In this document: positions 2,942 through 9,584 of the stretch, in pieces
Position numbering within the stretch: position 1 is the stretch's first letter
Layout: each line of letters starts with the position of its first letter
Source: Verrucomicrobiia bacterium
GTDB taxonomy: Bacteria > Verrucomicrobiota > Verrucomicrobiia > JADLBR01
Length of the DNA stretch: 45,777 nucleotides
Direction of reading: 5' to 3'
Assembly (NCBI GenBank): GCA_020847615.1
Contig: JADLBR010000341.1
Span: 1-45,777 of the forward strand
Notes under the pieces: model-generated
Told to the model about the DNA's origin: nothing
The model's database searches: none
The model's input: the letters and a program-made list of their open reading frames with translations, nothing else
Made by a program: the position numbers and the translations under genes

Positions 2942-4150
2942 GTGGAAGCCAAGAACAAGATCCTGGTCGCCAACATCGGCAGCACCTCGTTCAAGTTTCG
3001 CTTGTTCGAGATGCCGGCCGAGCGCCTGCTCGCGCGCGGATCCGTGGAGCGCATCGGCGCCCCGCGTGGCGCGTGGAAGGCGCAGGTCGGCGACGCCAGG
3101 CCCGAGGAGGGCGAGGGCGCCTTCCCCGACTACGGGGCCGCGATCGCGCTGGTGGAGGAGAAACTCCGCGGGCGCGCGCTGGACGGCCTCGGGGAACTGG
3201 CCGCGGTCGGCTTCAAGCCGGTGATGGCCAAGGGGATCTCTGGCACGCAATTGCTGGACGATGGCGTGCTGGCGGCGATGGAGGCGCTGTACACGCTGCT
3301 TCCGGCGCACAACCCGCCGTACGTCAAGGCCGTCCGCGCCTTCCAGGCCCGGCAGCCCGGGCTCCCCTGCATCGGCACCTTCGAGACGGCCTTCTACGAC
3401 AGCCTCCCGCGCGCTCGGCGCCGGTTCCCCATCCCGCTGGAGTGGGAACAGAAATACGGCATCCGGCGCGAGGGCTTCCACGGCGCCAGCCACCGCTACG
3501 TCACCGAGCGCGCCGCCGAGATCCGCGGGACCAAGAAGCTGCGCATGATCTCCTGCCACCTCGGCGGGAGTGCCTCCATCTGCGCCGTGCGCGATGGCGT
3601 CGCGGTCGATTCCTCCTGGGGCATGACCGCACAGAGCGGCCTGCCCCACAACAACCGCGTCGGGGATTTCGATGTCTTCGCCGCCTTCTACGTCCAGAAG
3701 CTCGCCGGGCTCTCCATCGAGCAGATGGAGGCCGCGCTCGCGAAAGAGGCGGGCCTCAAGGGGATGTCCGGCCTCGATTCGGGGGACATCCGCGACGTGC
3801 GCGCCGCGGCCAACGCCGGCAACGACGACGCCCGCACCGCGCTGGCGGTCTTCGTCGACTCGATCCGCAAGTACGTCGGCCAGTTCCTCGTGGAGCTCAA
3901 CGGCGCCGACGTCCTCATTTTCGCGGGCGGCATCGGCGAGTACAACCCCGACATCCGCGCCGAGGTCTGCGCCGGCATGGAGTTCTGCGGCCTGCGCCTC
4001 GACCCCGCCGCCAACGAGGGCGCCGTCGGCCGCGAGGCCGTCATTTCCGCGGCGGGCTCGGCCATCGAGGTCCGCGTCATACCCACCAATGAAGAGATCA
4101 TCATCGCGCGCAACGCCTGGGAGAAGCTCGGCCACGGGCGCGAGAGGTAG
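2942..4150 (+). CDS. Acetate/propionate kinase homologue of the BMC operon (divergent active site)
   Basis: The product is predicted to convert acyl-phosphate (probably lactyl-phosphate) plus ADP to the acid and ATP. The 402-residue length is normal for AckA. The ASKHA-type phosphate loop reads 'NIGSTSFKF' (residues 11-19), and 'FHGASHRYV' (179-187) and 'LPAHNP' (120-125) are kept. Several usually invariant positions differ: the substrate-arginine motif GHRVVHGG is 'GFKPVMAKG' (90-98), FDTAF is 'FETAF' (147-151), and HLGNG is 'HLGGS' (206-210). These comparisons rest on recalled family sequences. It starts at GTG 2942 behind GGGGGAGG. The changes may reflect a larger acyl group. Confidence 0.85.
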   Translation: MEAKNKILVANIGSTSFKFRLFEMPAERLLARGSVERIGAPRGAWKAQVGDARPEEGEGAFPDYGAAIALVEEKLRGRALDGLGELAAVGFKPVMAKGISGTQLLDDGVLAAMEALYTLLPAHNPPYVKAVRAFQARQPGLPCIGTFETAFYDSLPRARRRFPIPLEWEQKYGIRREGFHGASHRYVTERAAEIRGTKKLRMISCHLGGSASICAVRDGVAVDSSWGMTAQSGLPHNNRVGDFDVFAAFYVQKLAGLSIEQMEAALAKEAGLKGMSGLDSGDIRDVRAAANAGNDDARTALAVFVDSIRKYVGQFLVELNGADVLIFAGGIGEYNPDIRAEVCAGMEFCGLRLDPAANEGAVGREAVISAAGSAIEVRVIPTNEEIIIARNAWEKLGHGRER

Positions 4151-4211
4151 GAAATCGATTTCAGTAAAAGCCGGAATTCGGAGAACAGGGAATACAGAGA
4201 CAAGGAGAACC

Positions 4212-4490
4212 ATGAGCCAGGCAATTGGAATGATAGAGACGCGCGGGCTGATCGCGCTCGTCGAGGCGACGGACGCCATGCTGAAGTCCGCCAACGTCGA
4301 GCTCGTCGGCCCGCTGACGCAGGTCGGCAACGCCATGGTCACGGTCGTGGTCCAGGGCGACGTGGCCGCCGTCAAGGCCGCCACCGAGGCGGGCCGCAAC
4401 GCGGCGCAGGCGCTGGGCGAGGTCGTGTCGGTGGACGTCATCGCCCGCCCGCACGGCGACCTCGGCGCGGTGCTGCCGAAGGCCAAGTGA
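4212..4490 (+). CDS. BMC-H shell protein, paralogue 3
   Basis: This 92-residue BMC-domain hexamer protein begins '[20 protein letters not shown]' and contains 'VDVIARPHGDL'. The ATG at 4212 follows AAGGAG. The frame is open much further upstream, across the kinase gene, but the family start is clear. Its separation from the other two BMC-H genes by the kinase suggests local duplication followed by shuffling. It is very similar to paralogue 2 through the first 30 residues. Confidence 0.95.
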   Translation: MSQAIGMIETRGLIALVEATDAMLKSANVELVGPLTQVGNAMVTVVVQGDVAAVKAATEAGRNAAQALGEVVSVDVIARPHGDLGAVLPKAK

Positions 4491-4512
4491 TCGGCCACCG
4501 GAGCACATCGCC

Positions 4513-4824
4513 ATGATCCTCGCCAAGGTCGAGGGCAGCGTCGTCGCCACCAAGAAGCACGGCAAGATCACCGGCAACAAGCTGTTGCTGGTCCGGCCAT
4601 TCACGGCCGACTCGCCGGAGGCGGGGGCGCTCCGCGCCGGCGGCTCCACGCTCGTCGCCGTCGACCAGATCGGCGCCGGCGAGGGCGAGATGGTCCTCGT
4701 CGCCCAGGGCAGCTCCGCGCGCCTCGGGATGAGCGACAAGGACTCGCCCGTGGACGCCGTCGTCGTCGGCATCGTCGATACCGTCGATATCGGAAAGAAA
4801 CTGGTCTACCGCGCCAGTGCGTGA
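4513..4824 (+). CDS. EutN/CcmL-family BMC-P vertex protein 1
   Basis: This 103-residue EutN_CcmL (Pfam 03319) protein is expected to form pentamers that cap shell vertices. It shows the family opening 'MILAKVEGSVVATKKHGKI', the central 'VAVDQIGAGEGEMVLVAQGS', and the C-terminal 'DAVVVGIVDTVD'. GGAG lies 10 bases upstream. Of the three BMC-P proteins in the operon this is the closest to the CcmL/EutN consensus. Confidence 0.95.
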   Translation: MILAKVEGSVVATKKHGKITGNKLLLVRPFTADSPEAGALRAGGSTLVAVDQIGAGEGEMVLVAQGSSARLGMSDKDSPVDAVVVGIVDTVDIGKKLVYRASA

Positions 4825-4836
4825 GGCGGTTTGAAC

Positions 4837-4866
4837 CACGAATGGACACGAATGGACACCAATGAC
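4837..4866 (+). repeat. Three 10-base tandem repeats upstream of the aldehyde dehydrogenase
   Basis: Three units of 'CACGAATGGA' (the last reads CACCAATGAC) lie in the 83-base gap between the BMC-P gene and the aldehyde dehydrogenase. The gap is unusually large and its sequence is less GC-rich than its neighbours. The repeat may be a small dispersed repeat or a spacing element. No regulator is evident. Confidence 0.6.
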
Positions 4867-4907
4867 GACGGACCTGGTGTGGTGCGGAATGAGGATTTAA
4901 GGATCGC

Positions 4908-6335
4908 ATGAAAATGGATGAGCAGATCGTATCGCGGGTCGTGAGGGAGGTCCTCGCGCGCCTGGAGAAGCAGACCGCCGTCGTCGCGTCGGGCCAGACC
5001 GGTTTCGGCGTCTACGACCGGATGGAGGACGCGGTCGGCGCCGCGCACGCCTCGTTCGAGAGACTCCGGGAGTCGGGCACCGAGGCGCGCAAGAAGGCCC
5101 TCGGCGTCATCCGCCGGATGTCCGAGGAGAAGGCCGCCGAGTGGGGTCCGCTGGAGCTCGAGGAGACGAAGATCGGGCGGCTCGACCACAAGATCGAGAA
5201 GCTCGGCATCTGCGGGCGCCTCGTGCCCGGGGTGGAGTTCCTGGAGCGCATGGCCTTCAGCGGCGACTTCGGCCTGACCGTGATCGATTTCGCGCCGTGG
5301 GGCGTCATCGGCGCGGTCACGCCCTCGACGCACAGCATCCCGACGCTCACCGGCAACGCCATCAACATGATCGCGGCCGGCAACGCCGTCGTCTTCAACA
5401 CGCACCCCTCGGCCTGCAACTGCGCCGCCGTCGCGATCCGCGCCTACAACGAGGCCATCTTCCGCGAGACCGGTATCCCGGACCTCCTCACGACGGTCCG
5501 CAAGCCCACGCTCGACACCTTCAACGCGATGTGCGCCGACGAGCGCGTCGCGCTCCTCTGCGTCACCGGCGGCCCCGGCGTCGTCAAGGCCGCCATGAAG
5601 ACCGGCAAGCGCGCCATCTGCGCCGGCCCCGGCAACCCGCCGGTCGTCGTCGACGAGACCGCCGACCTCGAGCGCGCCGCCCGCAGCATCATCCAGGGCG
5701 CGGCCTACGACAACAACCTCCTCTGCATCGGGGAGAAGGAGGTCTTCGTCGTCGCCTCGGTGGCCGATGCGCTCATCGCCGCGCTCAAGCGCGCCGGCGC
5801 CATGCAGCTGACCGGCCCCCAGATCGACGCGCTGACCAAGGCCGCGTTCACCTTCCCCGAGGGCCAGGGCGCCGGCTGCCCGCACCCGCAGCTGAACAAG
5901 AAGCTCGTGGGCCAGGGGCCGAAGTTCCTGGGCCAGCAGATAGGCATCCAGGTCCCCGACAAGTGCGACCTGCTCTTCGGCGAGACCGACGAGAAACACC
6001 CCTTCGTCCAGGAGGAGCAGATGATGGCCTTCATCCCCATCGTCCGGGTCAAGGACGTGGACGCCGCGATCGATGCCGCGATCCGCGCCGAGCACGGCTA
6101 CCGCCACACCGCCATCATGCACTCCGTCCACGTCGGCCGCCTGACCAAGATGGCGCAGGCCGTGGACACGACGCTCTTCATCAAGAATGGCCCCTGCATG
6201 ACCGGCCTGGGGCTCGGCGGCGAGGGATTCCTCAGCTTCTCCATCGCGACCCCGACCGGCGAGGGCGTCACCACCCCCATGACCTTCACGCGATCGAGGC
6301 GGTGCGTGATGGTGGAGAATCTCAACCTCTTTTGA
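4908..6335 (+). CDS. CoA-acylating aldehyde dehydrogenase (PduP/EutE-like) of the BMC
   Basis: The product is predicted to oxidise an aldehyde (probably lactaldehyde) with NAD+ and CoA to the acyl-CoA in the BMC lumen. At 475 residues it has typical PduP/EutE length. Cys273 in 'NNLLCIGEKE' is the expected catalytic thiol, and 'CAGPGNPPVVVDETAD' (238-253) is a hallmark of BMC-associated enzymes. The N-terminal helix 'DEQIVSRVVREVLARLEK' (4-21) looks like an encapsulation peptide. ATG 4908 has AAGGA upstream; ATG 4914 is a close alternative. The next BMC gene is separated from it by an inserted S23-type ORF. Confidence 0.93.
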   Translation: MKMDEQIVSRVVREVLARLEKQTAVVASGQTGFGVYDRMEDAVGAAHASFERLRESGTEARKKALGVIRRMSEEKAAEWGPLELEETKIGRLDHKIEKLGICGRLVPGVEFLERMAFSGDFGLTVIDFAPWGVIGAVTPSTHSIPTLTGNAINMIAAGNAVVFNTHPSACNCAAVAIRAYNEAIFRETGIPDLLTTVRKPTLDTFNAMCADERVALLCVTGGPGVVKAAMKTGKRAICAGPGNPPVVVDETADLERAARSIIQGAAYDNNLLCIGEKEVFVVASVADALIAALKRAGAMQLTGPQIDALTKAAFTFPEGQGAGCPHPQLNKKLVGQGPKFLGQQIGIQVPDKCDLLFGETDEKHPFVQEEQMMAFIPIVRVKDVDAAIDAAIRAEHGYRHTAIMHSVHVGRLTKMAQAVDTTLFIKNGPCMTGLGLGGEGFLSFSIATPTGEGVTTPMTFTRSRRCVMVENLNLF

Positions 6336-6342
6336 GCGATGG

Positions 6343-6866
6343 TTCTTCCAACTTCCATCTTCTTCTCCCCACTTCCTCCACGTCGAGGTTAGCGCACCAT
6401 GGCTTTCTCCCACGAGAACCTAAGAGTCTACCAGAAGGCTATCGCCTTTGTCGCGTGGACCCACGCGCTGATCGAGACGCTTCCGCGCGGTTTTTCCGCC
6501 AAGGACCAGTTGGAGCGTGCATCGACCAGCGTCGCCCTGAATCTCGCGGAAGGTAACGCGAAGTTCTCCCACAGGGATCGCGGGCGGTTTTGGCAGATCG
6601 CGCACGGCTCGGCGGTGGAGTGCGCGGCGTGCCTCGATGTTCTGGTCGCACGAAAGGCGATCGAATCCCAACTCGCCGACGCCGGCAAAGGCAAGCTCGA
6701 AGAGATCGTCCGGATGATCCTCGCCCTGCTGGATGGCCTGGGGCAGCGGTTCCGCGAGGACGAATCGGAGTATGGTGCTGCTTTTGACCCGCTTGCCTGT
6801 ACGTGCCACGAGGTGGGACTGGCAGCGGGGAGGATGATGGAAGAGGAAGATGGAAGAGGGTGGGAG
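6343..6866. repeat. Inverted repeat enclosing the S23-type gene
   Basis: Bases 6352-6366 are the reverse complement of 6842-6856 at 14 of 15 positions, and the odd one is a permitted G-U pair. Both arms sit in pyrimidine-rich (left) and purine-rich (right) tracts. A transcript could fold into a stem that closes over the whole S23 ORF, as intervening sequences do in 23S rRNA. The arms have low complexity, so chance pairing is possible. Confidence 0.5.
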
Positions 6867-6893
6867 GGGCAGGAGCGGCATGCGCCTCGCTAG
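6399..6893 (+). CDS. Four-helix-bundle (S23/IVS-type) protein inserted in the BMC operon
   Basis: The product matches the family encoded in 23S rRNA intervening sequences (TIGR02436/S23). Diagnostic stretches are 'ENLRVYQKAIAFV' near the start, 'QLERASTSVALNLAEGNAK' at about residues 37-55, and 'FWQIAHGSAVECAACLDVL' at about 64-82. The molecular role is unknown; members form homopentameric four-helix bundles. Homology ends near residue 125, and the last 35 residues look like translated flank. The ORF overlaps the start of the next BMC-P gene by 14 bases. It has no expected role in BMC chemistry and looks like an insertion between the dehydrogenase and the BMC-P genes. Confidence 0.8.
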   Translation: MAFSHENLRVYQKAIAFVAWTHALIETLPRGFSAKDQLERASTSVALNLAEGNAKFSHRDRGRFWQIAHGSAVECAACLDVLVARKAIESQLADAGKGKLEEIVRMILALLDGLGQRFREDESEYGAAFDPLACTCHEVGLAAGRMMEEEDGRGWEGQERHAPR

Positions 6894-7155
6894 AATAATC
6901 GGCCACGTCGTTTCGACGGTGAAGCACAAGAGCCTCGGGGGCTGGCGGCTCCTCATCGCCCAGCCGCTCGACGGCGAGGGCAAGGAGGAGGGACCGCCGC
7001 AGATCGTCATCGATCCCTTCGGCGCCGGGATCCGGCAGAAGGTTCTCATCACCTCCGATGGCGCCGAGGCGCGGAAACTCGTGGGCGACGACCGAAGCCC
7101 CGCGCGGTGGTCGGTGCTCGGGATCGTGGATCCCGAGGGGGAGCTGGCGATATGA
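6880..7155 (+). CDS. EutN/CcmL-family BMC-P vertex protein 2
   Basis: This 91-residue EutN_CcmL protein starts 'MRLARIIGHVVSTVKH' and contains 'IDPFGAGIRQKVLITSDG' and 'SVLGIVD'. The ATG at 6880 lies just after AGGAGC. The frame is open ten codons upstream, but that part is purine-tract DNA at the S23 boundary. It is predicted to form shell pentamers. Its stop overlaps the next BMC-P start (ATGA), which implies translational coupling. Confidence 0.93.
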   Translation: MRLARIIGHVVSTVKHKSLGGWRLLIAQPLDGEGKEEGPPQIVIDPFGAGIRQKVLITSDGAEARKLVGDDRSPARWSVLGIVDPEGELAI

Positions 7156-7463
7156 GGATGGGCACGGTCATCGGGCGCGTGACGCTCTCGGTCCGCCATC
7201 CCGCGTTCCGGGGCGAGCGGCTGCTGCTGACCTCGCCGTGGAAGAAGGACACGTTCTGCGGCAAGCGCGTCTTCGACCCGGCGATCGTGGTGTACGACAC
7301 GCTGGGCGCGGGCGTCGGCCAGGAGATCGGCATCAGCGAGGGCCGCGAGGCCGCCTGCCCCTTTGAGCGCCCCACGCCCGTGGACGCCTACTGCGCCGCG
7401 CTCATTGACGAATTCTACTGCCCGCCGGAGACCAAGACCGGGGGCCGAGACCCGAAAGGATAA
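7152..7463 (+). CDS. EutN/CcmL-family BMC-P vertex protein 3
   Basis: This 103-residue EutN_CcmL protein has 'MGTVIGRVTLSVRHPAFRGE' after a two-residue lead and 'VYDTLGAGVGQEIGISEG' in the middle. It ends with a longer tail containing 'DAYCAALIDEFYC'. It is more Cys-rich than the other two BMC-P proteins (Cys in the loop, the middle and the tail). It starts within the ATGA overlap with paralogue 2; Met 7158 is an alternative start. Three BMC-P paralogues are typical of PVM-type loci. Confidence 0.92.
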   Translation: MRMGTVIGRVTLSVRHPAFRGERLLLTSPWKKDTFCGKRVFDPAIVVYDTLGAGVGQEIGISEGREAACPFERPTPVDAYCAALIDEFYCPPETKTGGRDPKG

Positions 7464-7469
7464 GACACC

Positions 7470-8534
7470 ATGAGACTATTCGCACAGAGAGACGCGGAGG
7501 AATTCGCCAAGACCGGCGAGAAGGTCTTCCGGTTCAACCGCGACATCCGGCTCACCCCCGGCGCGCGAGACGTGTTTGCCGAGCGCGGCGTCAAGGTCAT
7601 CTTCGAGGCCGACGGGCCCGCGCCATCACCCGCGACCGCCCCCGCGGCCCCGTCCGCCGGCGGCACGAAATCCGAGTGGGAGAAGCTGTTCCGCTCGCCG
7701 GAGGCGGAGTCCCTGAAGCAGCAGATCTGCGAGATCGGCAAGCGCTGCTGGCAGCGGGATTACTGCGACGGCAACGGCGGCAACATCTCCGCGCGGCTCG
7801 GCGACGTGTTCATCTGCACGCCGACGGGCGTGAGCAAGGGCTTCATGAAGCCCGAGATGATGTGCCTCGTCGACATCGATGGCAACCAGCTCGCGGGGAC
7901 GTGGAAGCGCACCAGCGAGATCCTGACCCACATGGCCATCTATCGCGCCGTGCCGCAGGCCAAGGCCGTCGCCCACGCGCACCCCGTCTACGCGACGGCG
8001 TTCGCGATGGCGGGGCTCGAGCCGCCGCAGTGCCTGATCCCCGAGATGGAGGTCTTCGTGGGCCGCGCGCCGCTGGCGCCGTATCGAACGCCCGGGAGCG
8101 CCGACATGCAGGAGGTGATCAAGCCCCTCGCGCCGAAGCACCAGTCGATCCTGATGGGCAACCACGGCGTCATCTGCTGGGGCACCAGCGTCGAGGACGC
8201 CTACTTCAAGATGGAGATCACCGACGCCTATTGCCGCACGGTGGTCGTCGCCTCGCACCTGCCCACCAACCGCACCACGATCCCCGCCGAGGGCGTGCGG
8301 GAGCTTCTGGACATCAAGAAGAAGCTCGGCCTGCCCGACCCGCGGGAGGATTACAAGCCCGTGCAGCTCTGCGAGGTCGATCCCTGGAACATGATCTCGG
8401 ACCGCCCGTGCGGCTGCTCCTCGCCTGCCTCGGGGGGCGGCGCCGATGCCGGTGGCATGACCAACGCCGAGCTGGAGGCCCTGGTGCAGCGAGTGACCGA
8501 CGAGATCATGAGATCCACGGGGGGCAAGTCGTGA
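7470..8534 (+). CDS. Class II (FucA/RhaD-like) aldolase with extra N-terminal domain
   Basis: The product is predicted to split L-fuculose-1-phosphate or L-rhamnulose-1-phosphate to DHAP and lactaldehyde. Zinc ligands His169 and His171 ('HAHP'), His232 ('GNHG') and catalytic Glu150 have the same spacing (19, 2 and 61 residues) as recalled for E. coli FucA (E73, H92, H94, H155). The 354-residue length exceeds FucA by about 140. Part is an N-terminal segment (1-46) with 'LTPGARDVFAERGVKV', followed by a Pro/Ala linker. Part is a Gly/Ala linker and C-terminal helix 'TNAELEALVQRVTDEIMR', an encapsulation-peptide candidate. Confidence 0.9.
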   Translation: MRLFAQRDAEEFAKTGEKVFRFNRDIRLTPGARDVFAERGVKVIFEADGPAPSPATAPAAPSAGGTKSEWEKLFRSPEAESLKQQICEIGKRCWQRDYCDGNGGNISARLGDVFICTPTGVSKGFMKPEMMCLVDIDGNQLAGTWKRTSEILTHMAIYRAVPQAKAVAHAHPVYATAFAMAGLEPPQCLIPEMEVFVGRAPLAPYRTPGSADMQEVIKPLAPKHQSILMGNHGVICWGTSVEDAYFKMEITDAYCRTVVVASHLPTNRTTIPAEGVRELLDIKKKLGLPDPREDYKPVQLCEVDPWNMISDRPCGCSSPASGGGADAGGMTNAELEALVQRVTDEIMRSTGGKS

Positions 8535-9454
8535 AGGTCGCGATCGTCGGCGGCGGGGGCCGCGTCGGCTCCTGCGCCGCGTTCGCGCTCCAGTGCAGCG
8601 GCATCGCGCGCGAGCTGGTGATCCTCGACGCGAACCAGGCGTCCGCCGAGGGCGAGGCCCTCGACCTGCTGCACGGCGCCGCCTATTGCGCCGATCAGGT
8701 CATCCGCGCGGGCGGCTATCCCGATTGCGCGGACGCGGACGTGGTGTGCATCACCGCCGGGCTGCGCCGCAAGCCCGACGAGTCGCGGCTCGACCTCATC
8801 AATCGCAACGTCGCGCTCTTCAAGGGCATCCTCGACAGCCTCAAGGGGGCGGGCCTCCGCAAGGACGCGATCGTGTTCGTCGTCTCCAACCCGGTCGATA
8901 TCCTCACGCACCTGGCGTGGAAGGCCACGGGCCTTCCCGAGAATCAGGTCATCGGCCTCGGCACCATGCTCGACACGTCGCGGTTCTGTTCCCTGATCGC
9001 CGAGGCGCTGAAACTCCCGGCCACGCAGATCCGCGCGATGATTCTGGGAGAACACGGGGACACCATGATCCCCGTCTGGTCCTCCGCCACCGTCGAGGGC
9101 TTCCCCCTGCTGAAATTTCCCGGCGTCACCCCGACCTTCCAGGGCCAGATCTTCGAGCGCACGAAGAAGAGCGGCGCGGAGGTGATCTCCCGCAAGGGCG
9201 GGGCGGGCTGGGCCGTCGGCGTCGCGATCCGCGAGGTGATCGACTGCATCGCGCTGGATCGCCGGCGCGTGCTGCCCGTCTCCAGCCCGGTCAAGGGCGC
9301 CTACGGCATCCGCGACATCTCCATCAGCGTGCCCACGGTCGTTGGCCGGAAGGGCGCGCTCGGCCACGTCGAGCTGGAGCTCTGGCCCAAGGAGATTCAG
9401 GGCCTCCAGGCCTCGGCCAAGGCGCTGAAGGATACCTACGCCAAAGTGGGCTGA
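8531..9454 (+). CDS. LDH/MDH-superfamily NAD-dependent dehydrogenase, MDH-type specificity residue
   Basis: This 307-residue protein starts at GTG 8531 in a GTGA overlap with the aldolase stop. The Rossmann loop is 'VAIVGGGGRVGS' (3-14), the catalytic His sits in 'GEHGDTMIPVWS', and the substrate loop reads 'AGLRRKPDESR'. The residue equivalent to LDH Gln102 is Arg, as in malate dehydrogenases. PVM loci carry a dehydrogenase annotated as lactate/malate dehydrogenase, thought to recycle cofactor. No terminal encapsulation helix is visible, so it may act outside the shell. A longer overlapping frame begins at 7676 but is a shadow of the aldolase. Confidence 0.88.
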   Translation: MKVAIVGGGGRVGSCAAFALQCSGIARELVILDANQASAEGEALDLLHGAAYCADQVIRAGGYPDCADADVVCITAGLRRKPDESRLDLINRNVALFKGILDSLKGAGLRKDAIVFVVSNPVDILTHLAWKATGLPENQVIGLGTMLDTSRFCSLIAEALKLPATQIRAMILGEHGDTMIPVWSSATVEGFPLLKFPGVTPTFQGQIFERTKKSGAEVISRKGGAGWAVGVAIREVIDCIALDRRRVLPVSSPVKGAYGIRDISISVPTVVGRKGALGHVELELWPKEIQGLQASAKALKDTYAKVG

Positions 9455-9460
9455 TGATTC

Positions 9461-9584
9461 TGGAATAAGGCGGTTTGGCTTTCCAGCAGCCTGTTGAAGA
9501 ACGCCATCGGACGCCGAGGCCGGCGTCCCTCCCCGGTTGCGCCGGGAGGGCCCGCGGCCTTCCCAAAGTCCAATGGGCTGCTAG
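9461..9584 (+). repeat. Third copy of the palindromic repeat, at the end of the BMC operon
   Basis: It begins 'TGGAATAAGGCGGTTTGGCT' seven bases after the dehydrogenase stop, matching 148-168, and ends in 'GGGCTGCTAG', matching the end at 213. The outer ends (AGCAGCCTGTTG / CAATGGGCTGCT) are imperfect inverted repeats. Inside are two hairpins: GGACGCCG (9509-9516) with CGGCGTCC (9521-9528), and CCTCCCCGG with CCGGGAGG (about 9528-9549). It could terminate or insulate the BMC transcript, although no U-tract follows. Confidence 0.6.

Follow-up and report, generated by a model that had tools for sequence, protein, structure and literature searches.

Why does a gene of the S23 family, which is known from the intervening sequences (IVSs) of rRNA, lie within an operon of BMC genes, enclosed by an inverted repeat? 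We analyzed this locus in the window, that is, the whole 45,777-nucleotide stretch of DNA from a Verrucomicrobiia bacterium, and compared it with S23 loci elsewhere in bacteria. To our knowledge, no function has been assigned to S23 proteins in the decades since they became known from rRNA IVSs, and no cause to the heptamer repeats that have been counted in many genomes. The window probably contains one copy of a widespread element type whose parts had not been linked previously, an S23 gene within inverted heptad arrays, which together would make up a two-component selfish system. From sequence comparison, S23 genes and heptamer repeats thus appear to be one kind of element, a larger finding than that of the initial, sequence-only reading of this locus, of which the stem, the placement of the gene and the insertion into a protein operon stood, whereas the processing from mRNA and the shared purine-rich arms did not.

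The S23 gene and its arms in the BMC operon

The features of the locus are as follows:

4908-6335, + strand: BMC aldehyde dehydrogenase gene, the upstream neighbour, 96% identical in a same-genus genome
6345-6379, + strand: upstream arm of degenerate heptads (CTTCCAA CTTCCAT CTTCTTC...), between the aldehyde dehydrogenase stop and the S23 start
6352-6366, + strand: strict 15-bp upstream arm, CTTCCATCTTCTTCT, pairing with 6842-6856
6399-6893, + strand: S23/TIGR02436 four-helix-bundle gene, 164 aa, with profile matches to PF05635 and TIGR02436
6829-6856, + strand: downstream arm, partner of 6352-6379, with the heptad GGAAGAT x3.9 at 6832-6857
6842-6856, + strand: strict 15-bp partner arm, AGAGGAAGATGGAAG, pairing with 6352-6366
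6883-7155, + strand: first downstream BMC-P (EutN/CcmL) gene, its start ATGCGCCTCGC conserved in the same-genus genome

The ORF at 6399-6893 is a member of the S23/TIGR02436/PF05635 family, scoring above the curated cut-offs of both profiles: 81.4 bits against PF05635 (E 6.5e-23, cut-off 33.8, residues 6-107) and 73.1 bits against TIGR02436 (cut-off 24, residues 10-111). These matches bear out its original recognition as an S23-type ORF that follows a BMC aldehyde dehydrogenase and precedes a BMC-P gene, and the proposed overlap of its 3' end with the BMC-P start is equally real, with 11 bp shared from the start at 6883. At its 3' end, ~40 codons of the ORF have no family match and traverse the downstream arm into this start. 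The operon comprises, in order, phosphate propanoyltransferase, two BMC-H genes, acetate kinase, a further BMC-domain ORF, BMC-P, aldehyde dehydrogenase, S23, BMC-P, BMC-P and aldolase. The S23 gene of the window is located in a BMC operon and not in a 23S rRNA gene, as an IVS would be; the sole ORF of the element is the PF05635 protein and not an HUH/Y1 tyrosine transposase; and the assigned neighbours are BMC and central-metabolism genes, not the reverse transcriptase and TR/VR repeats of a diversity-generating retroelement (DGR). An Rfam search of positions 4000-9500 returned zero matches. Another repeat occupies a different junction of the same operon, namely, the 10-bp tandem repeat CACGAATGGA (x2.8, 4837-4864) in the short gap between BMC-P and aldehyde dehydrogenase.

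As in rRNA IVSs, the complementary ends close a stem over the ORF. The pairing of 6352-6366 with 6842-6856 is exactly as first described, with 14 Watson-Crick pairs and one G-U, and the stem is contained in the MFE fold, the whole stretch reaching only z = -1.57. Each arm is built from degenerate repeats of a 7-bp unit, which the sequence-only reading did not see; the arms form inverted arrays of tandem 7-mers around the gene, of which the upstream one is degenerate, and Tandem Repeats Finder independently detected the unit GGAAGAT x3.9 at 6832-6857. When the two short flanks (from the upstream stop to the S23 start, and from the end of the S23 core to the BMC-P start) were subjected to dinucleotide shuffling, 3 of 2000 shuffles reached the observed arm score; with wobbles counted as mismatches, only 1 of 2000 did, for an extended 28-bp pair of 6352-6379 with 6829-6856.

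One could argue that this is a stable gene of the BMC operon, with purine-rich flanks that match by low-complexity coincidence, given that the arms in the window are short and partly low-complexity, and that their 7-bp periodicity is weak. The shuffles, which reach the arm score in 0.05-0.15% of cases, speak against such a coincidence, as do the variability of the junction in relatives and the generality of the same bracket among S23 genes, both described below, and we assign this explanation a negligible probability.

The homologous junction differs among relatives. Of the genus, one other genome was searched; its aldehyde dehydrogenase is 96% identical, and an S23 gene is again present at the same junction. 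This gene, however, is unrelated to the S23 gene of the window (BLASTP E = 2.4) and has different arms (GAACGAT GAGCGCC GAGGGAC..., a score reached in 1 of 2000 shuffles). Another genome (G019) retains heptad arms at this junction and lacks the S23 gene, whereas in eight others (G008, G005, G025, G015, G010, G023, G021 and G007) only a few bases separate the stop codon from the next ATG. Among these eight, an S23 gene follows the second BMC-P gene in G025, and in G021 the two BMC-P genes are separated by short heptads without an ORF. The junction is therefore polymorphic for the insertion, and the S23 gene is an insertion rather than a stable member of the operon. The state that would have spoken against this, the same gene everywhere with no stem, was not encountered among the relatives, and the early suggestion of an IVS-like element that can enter protein operons is supported both by the varying junction states and by the recurrence of the arm anatomy elsewhere.

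Heptad arrays beside S23 genes across bacteria

At the S23 loci of 39 relatives, the arms appeared to consist of ~7-bp units that are different for each element. The expectation that other S23 genes would have identical purine-rich arms turned out to be wrong, each element having its own heptad. Autocorrelation peaks at lags 7, 14 and 21 appear beside the S23 genes only, not farther out. In a survey of 80 named S23 loci from ~18 phylum-level groups, of which 75 were usable, the median arm score was 16 within a locus compared to 8 for mismatched arms, and a score of at least 12 was found at 71% of the loci compared to 1.7% of mismatched arm pairs. Among 313 control ORFs from the same contigs, 2.6% reached this score (Mann-Whitney p 8e-29). 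Thus, S23 genes generally stand between two inverted arrays, each with about 4-5 7-mers in tandem (median, 4.7 heptads per arm), although a strong arm pair is absent at about 29% of the loci and, in the genome of the window, at 3 of the 5 S23 matches. Low-complexity coincidence was ruled out by the combination of the shuffles, the mismatched-arm test and the control-ORF test. In 35 of 45 cases, the heptads in their real order within the arms outscored the average over permuted orders, but many arms are too uniform to discriminate.

In 53 of 71 elements, the arm upstream of the gene is rich in purines on the S23 strand and contains about one AG in each heptad. The presence of AG in the upstream sense-strand heptads is frequent, not universal (AG exceeds CT in 57 of 74 elements, and CT exceeds AG in 9 of 74), and the window is an exception in polarity, its upstream arm being pyrimidine-rich (CTTCCAT). 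Bacteroidales have a tendency towards 9-mers: the arms of five loci, all within this single bacterial order (L072, L074, L075, L079 and L110), are built of 9-bp units, such as AGAAGTTAG and GGGAGTTAA. In Maribacter, an S23 element separates what appear to be the two parts into which a methionine synthase (metH) gene is split. The phage records contained zero S23 matches.

The heptad varies between elements yet tracks the S23 protein across phyla. Among 84 elements, the cross-phylum Jaccard index of arm 5-mers was 0.01-0.02 for pairs of S23 proteins below 110 bits and 0.205 for those at 140 bits or more, and the observed correlation between proteins and arms was reached in 0 of 5000 permutations of arms within phyla. 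For example, elements with the CAGAAGT/CAGGAGT heptads are found in Ignavibacteria, Acidobacteria, Planctomycetes, Cyanobacteria and the class of the window, with proteins that are ~65-78% identical. At this level of protein identity, unconstrained arms would be expected to be lost, which argues for a constraint; the correspondence could partly reflect joint inheritance of gene and arms, although synonymous sites would be expected to be saturated at 65-78% protein identity.

Insertion, loss and ORF-less arrays

At homologous junctions in other bacteria, too, the S23 unit may be present or missing, or a different, unrelated S23 gene with heptads of its own may take its place. Across 30 Flavobacterium species, the fadB|thiolase junction contains an S23 gene with AAGTATT arms, one of varied ORF-less heptad hairpins, or only a few bases (L185). 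The hairpins at this junction share heptads with the arms at the next junction to a greater extent within the same genome (0.23) than across genomes (0.108; 0 of 10000 permutations). At one locus (L187), the slot is filled by a small hydrophobic ORF that is not S23, with a downstream arm resembling that of the S23 element in relatives, so that replacement of the cargo is possible.

The traM|hypothetical junction of Nostoc plasmids contains S23 with AGGGAAC arms in two plasmids, a short homologous spacer in three, and, in one plasmid with 94% identity, heptad arms and no S23. The S23 ORFs of two plasmids are 99.7% identical, compared to 82.6% for traM and 94.5% for the next gene. This excess suggests recent transfer of S23, the alternatives being purifying selection and a recombination tract on the right. 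In plasmid pANA02 of Anabaena sp. 90, the cas6 and cas4 genes of a type I-D CRISPR locus are separated by an S23 gene whose AGGTGAC/AGGGAAC array is very long; complementary heptads are found in the cas4 start. A Dolichospermum plasmid that is 99% identical around cas6|cas4 lacks S23; it has another insertion there, so that this site demonstrates the absence of S23 and not a pristine target. The location of this gene may bear on the listing of the 23S rRNA IVP among CRISPR-associated domains (PMC10910872). No target-site duplication and no exact or clean boundary was found in the plasmid empty-site comparisons, in which the intergenic sequence is replaced and not cleanly split.

ORF-less arrays that share the heptad of an S23 element are scattered in the genomes that carry the element, and they include the TAACTGA and GGGAATC repeats. 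In the genome of the window, a CTTCCAT pattern search yielded 9 matches compared to 1 for the control, and the heptad occurs without an S23 gene in two other places (contig C274, positions 4937-4962, and contig C417, positions 1876-1908). The C274 array falls within the 5'-terminal part of a gene for a secreted protein, and the C417 array is at the 3' end of a gene, just before the next ATG, so that heptads turn into coding sequence.

The TAACTGA repeat, as (TAACTGA)4, is present in 67 of 293 Cyanobacteriales genomes. An S23 gene flanked by TAACTGA/TCAGTTA was found in 11 of 15 TAACTGA-rich cyanobacterial genomes and in none of 11 TAACTGA-free ones (Fisher p 2e-4). In one Cyanobacteriales genome with 183 TAACTGA array matches (G372), there are zero PF05635 matches, S23 being either lost or missing from the assembly. 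MacGregor proposed that an unidentified TAACTGA-binding protein might be the mobile element (PMC4679880). GGGAATC arrays were detected in 1 of 369 Gammaproteobacteria genomes, and the single S23 gene of that genome has GGGAATC arms. This gene is frameshifted, is related to XCC0516 of Xanthomonas and lies, by inspection, between apparent biotin carboxyl carrier and biotin carboxylase genes; the other GGGAATC arrays of the same genome are ORF-less hairpins. In Xanthomonas, according to Rehm et al., GGGAATC repeats mostly consist of four units and often form convergent inverted pairs, and GGGGA(C/T)T is a heptamer repeat of Nostoc (PMC4692102).

The abundance of ORF-less hairpins, together with the fact that, in most bacterial genomes, no longer SSR is as common as the heptads (reviewed in PMC4679880), could be taken to mean that heptad hairpins arise on their own by polymerase slippage and template switching, and that S23 is a mere cargo landing in their loops. 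Such a passenger role would leave unexplained both the arms at 71% of S23 genes against 2.6% of control ORFs and the cross-phylum correspondence between heptad and protein; we regard it as very improbable.

A candidate mechanism and its relation to known systems

It had been suggested that the element is processed from mRNA through the stem. Under this interpretation, the arms would close an mRNA stem over the S23 ORF and RNase III would excise it, making the insertion neutral to the operon, as in 23S rRNA. Indeed, the IVSs of rRNA, which contain S23 ORFs and have complementary ends, are substrates of RNase III (PMC4990558), and the arms in the window pair in the predicted fold. Nevertheless, on the sense strand the arms form 35 G-U wobbles with one another, against 63 A-C mismatches, and in most TAACTGA-type elements, with TCAGTGA or TCAGTAA in the upstream arm and TAACTGA in the downstream arm, each heptad carries one systematic mismatch. 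The absence of a wobble excess in the sense RNA and the mismatch in each heptad weaken the case for an RNA stem; furthermore, pairing requires neither a 7-bp periodicity nor a protein-matched heptad, and no 23S rRNA motif was seen near the named S23 loci. Processing from mRNA is accordingly not supported, and we consider excision at the RNA level improbable.

A regulatory system is another, also unlikely although less remote, candidate. Here, an S23 ring would bind mRNA heptads near start codons in a TRAP-like manner, with the S23 gene autoregulated and the dispersed arrays acting as operators, spread by ordinary repeat slippage and recombination of an element that is not itself mobile. The arms adjoin start codons, the arrays are intergenic, and AG appears about once per heptad upstream on the S23 sense strand, all of which would fit. 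This scheme, however, explains neither the inverted downstream arm nor the swapping of unrelated S23 genes at one junction, and arrays also occur inside gene ends and in both orientations.

In the two-component interpretation, S23 would be the active partner of the repeats. Solved S23 structures (2gsc and 2rld) contain five chains each, and XCC0516 has been described as a homopentamer toroid (PMC4990558); taken together with 4-5 heptads per arm, five chains would fit one heptad per subunit. We lean, by a slight balance of the sequence evidence, towards a model in which S23 proteins would be cognate readers and mobilisers of heptamer repeats in a selfish system that spans many phyla. The five-membered ring would recognise some five tandem 7-mers, perhaps one repeat per subunit, each subtype having its own heptad, and could act in trans on ORF-less hairpins of the same heptad, TAACTGA and GGGAATC repeats being putative non-autonomous copies. 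If so, gene and repeats would be the two components of a selfish system that resembles RAYT/REPIN in its working but uses a different protein. No catalytic motif was recognised in S23. The link offers a candidate protein partner for the TAACTGA and GGGAATC repeats and a partner for S23, both testable, and the protein-heptad correspondence would amount to a new code in nature, linking a small protein ring to a repeat of seven letters. Metabolic operons and those of type I-D cas genes are also among the places that these elements enter.

Among known systems, the 23S rRNA IVSs of Leptospira, Coxiella and Brucella share with the S23-heptad element the PF05635/TIGR02436 protein, the complementary ends and the insertion into a transcribed unit. 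The S23-heptad element differs in that it resides in protein operons, has subtype-specific tandem heptads as arms, shows no sign of selection for sense-RNA pairing, and shares its repeat with ORF-less copies. In the RAYT (REP-associated tyrosine transposase)/REPIN system, the gene is flanked by short palindromic repeats that are also scattered without an ORF and are host-specific and intergenic. The likeness lies in this arrangement of a gene and scattered short repeats; S23, however, is a four-helix-bundle ring and not an HUH/Y1 transposase, and its repeats are 7-bp tandem arrays. Avd of diversity-generating retroelements has been described as homologous to PF05635 (4DWL compared to 2GSC; PMC10053308). 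The partners of Avd are a reverse transcriptase and TR/VR repeats; the S23-heptad elements were not seen to include a reverse transcriptase, and an Avd-like partnership for their movement is a lead only. In the open-access full-text literature, we found no paper linking S23 to heptamer repeats. The TAACTGA (PMC4679880), GGGAATC and GGGGA(C/T)T (PMC4692102) repeats resemble the S23 arms in being intergenic 7-bp arrays, often of about four units and often in convergent inverted pairs; these two papers name no S23 partner, whereas here TAACTGA-armed S23 genes were identified in 11 genomes and a GGGAATC-armed one in 1.
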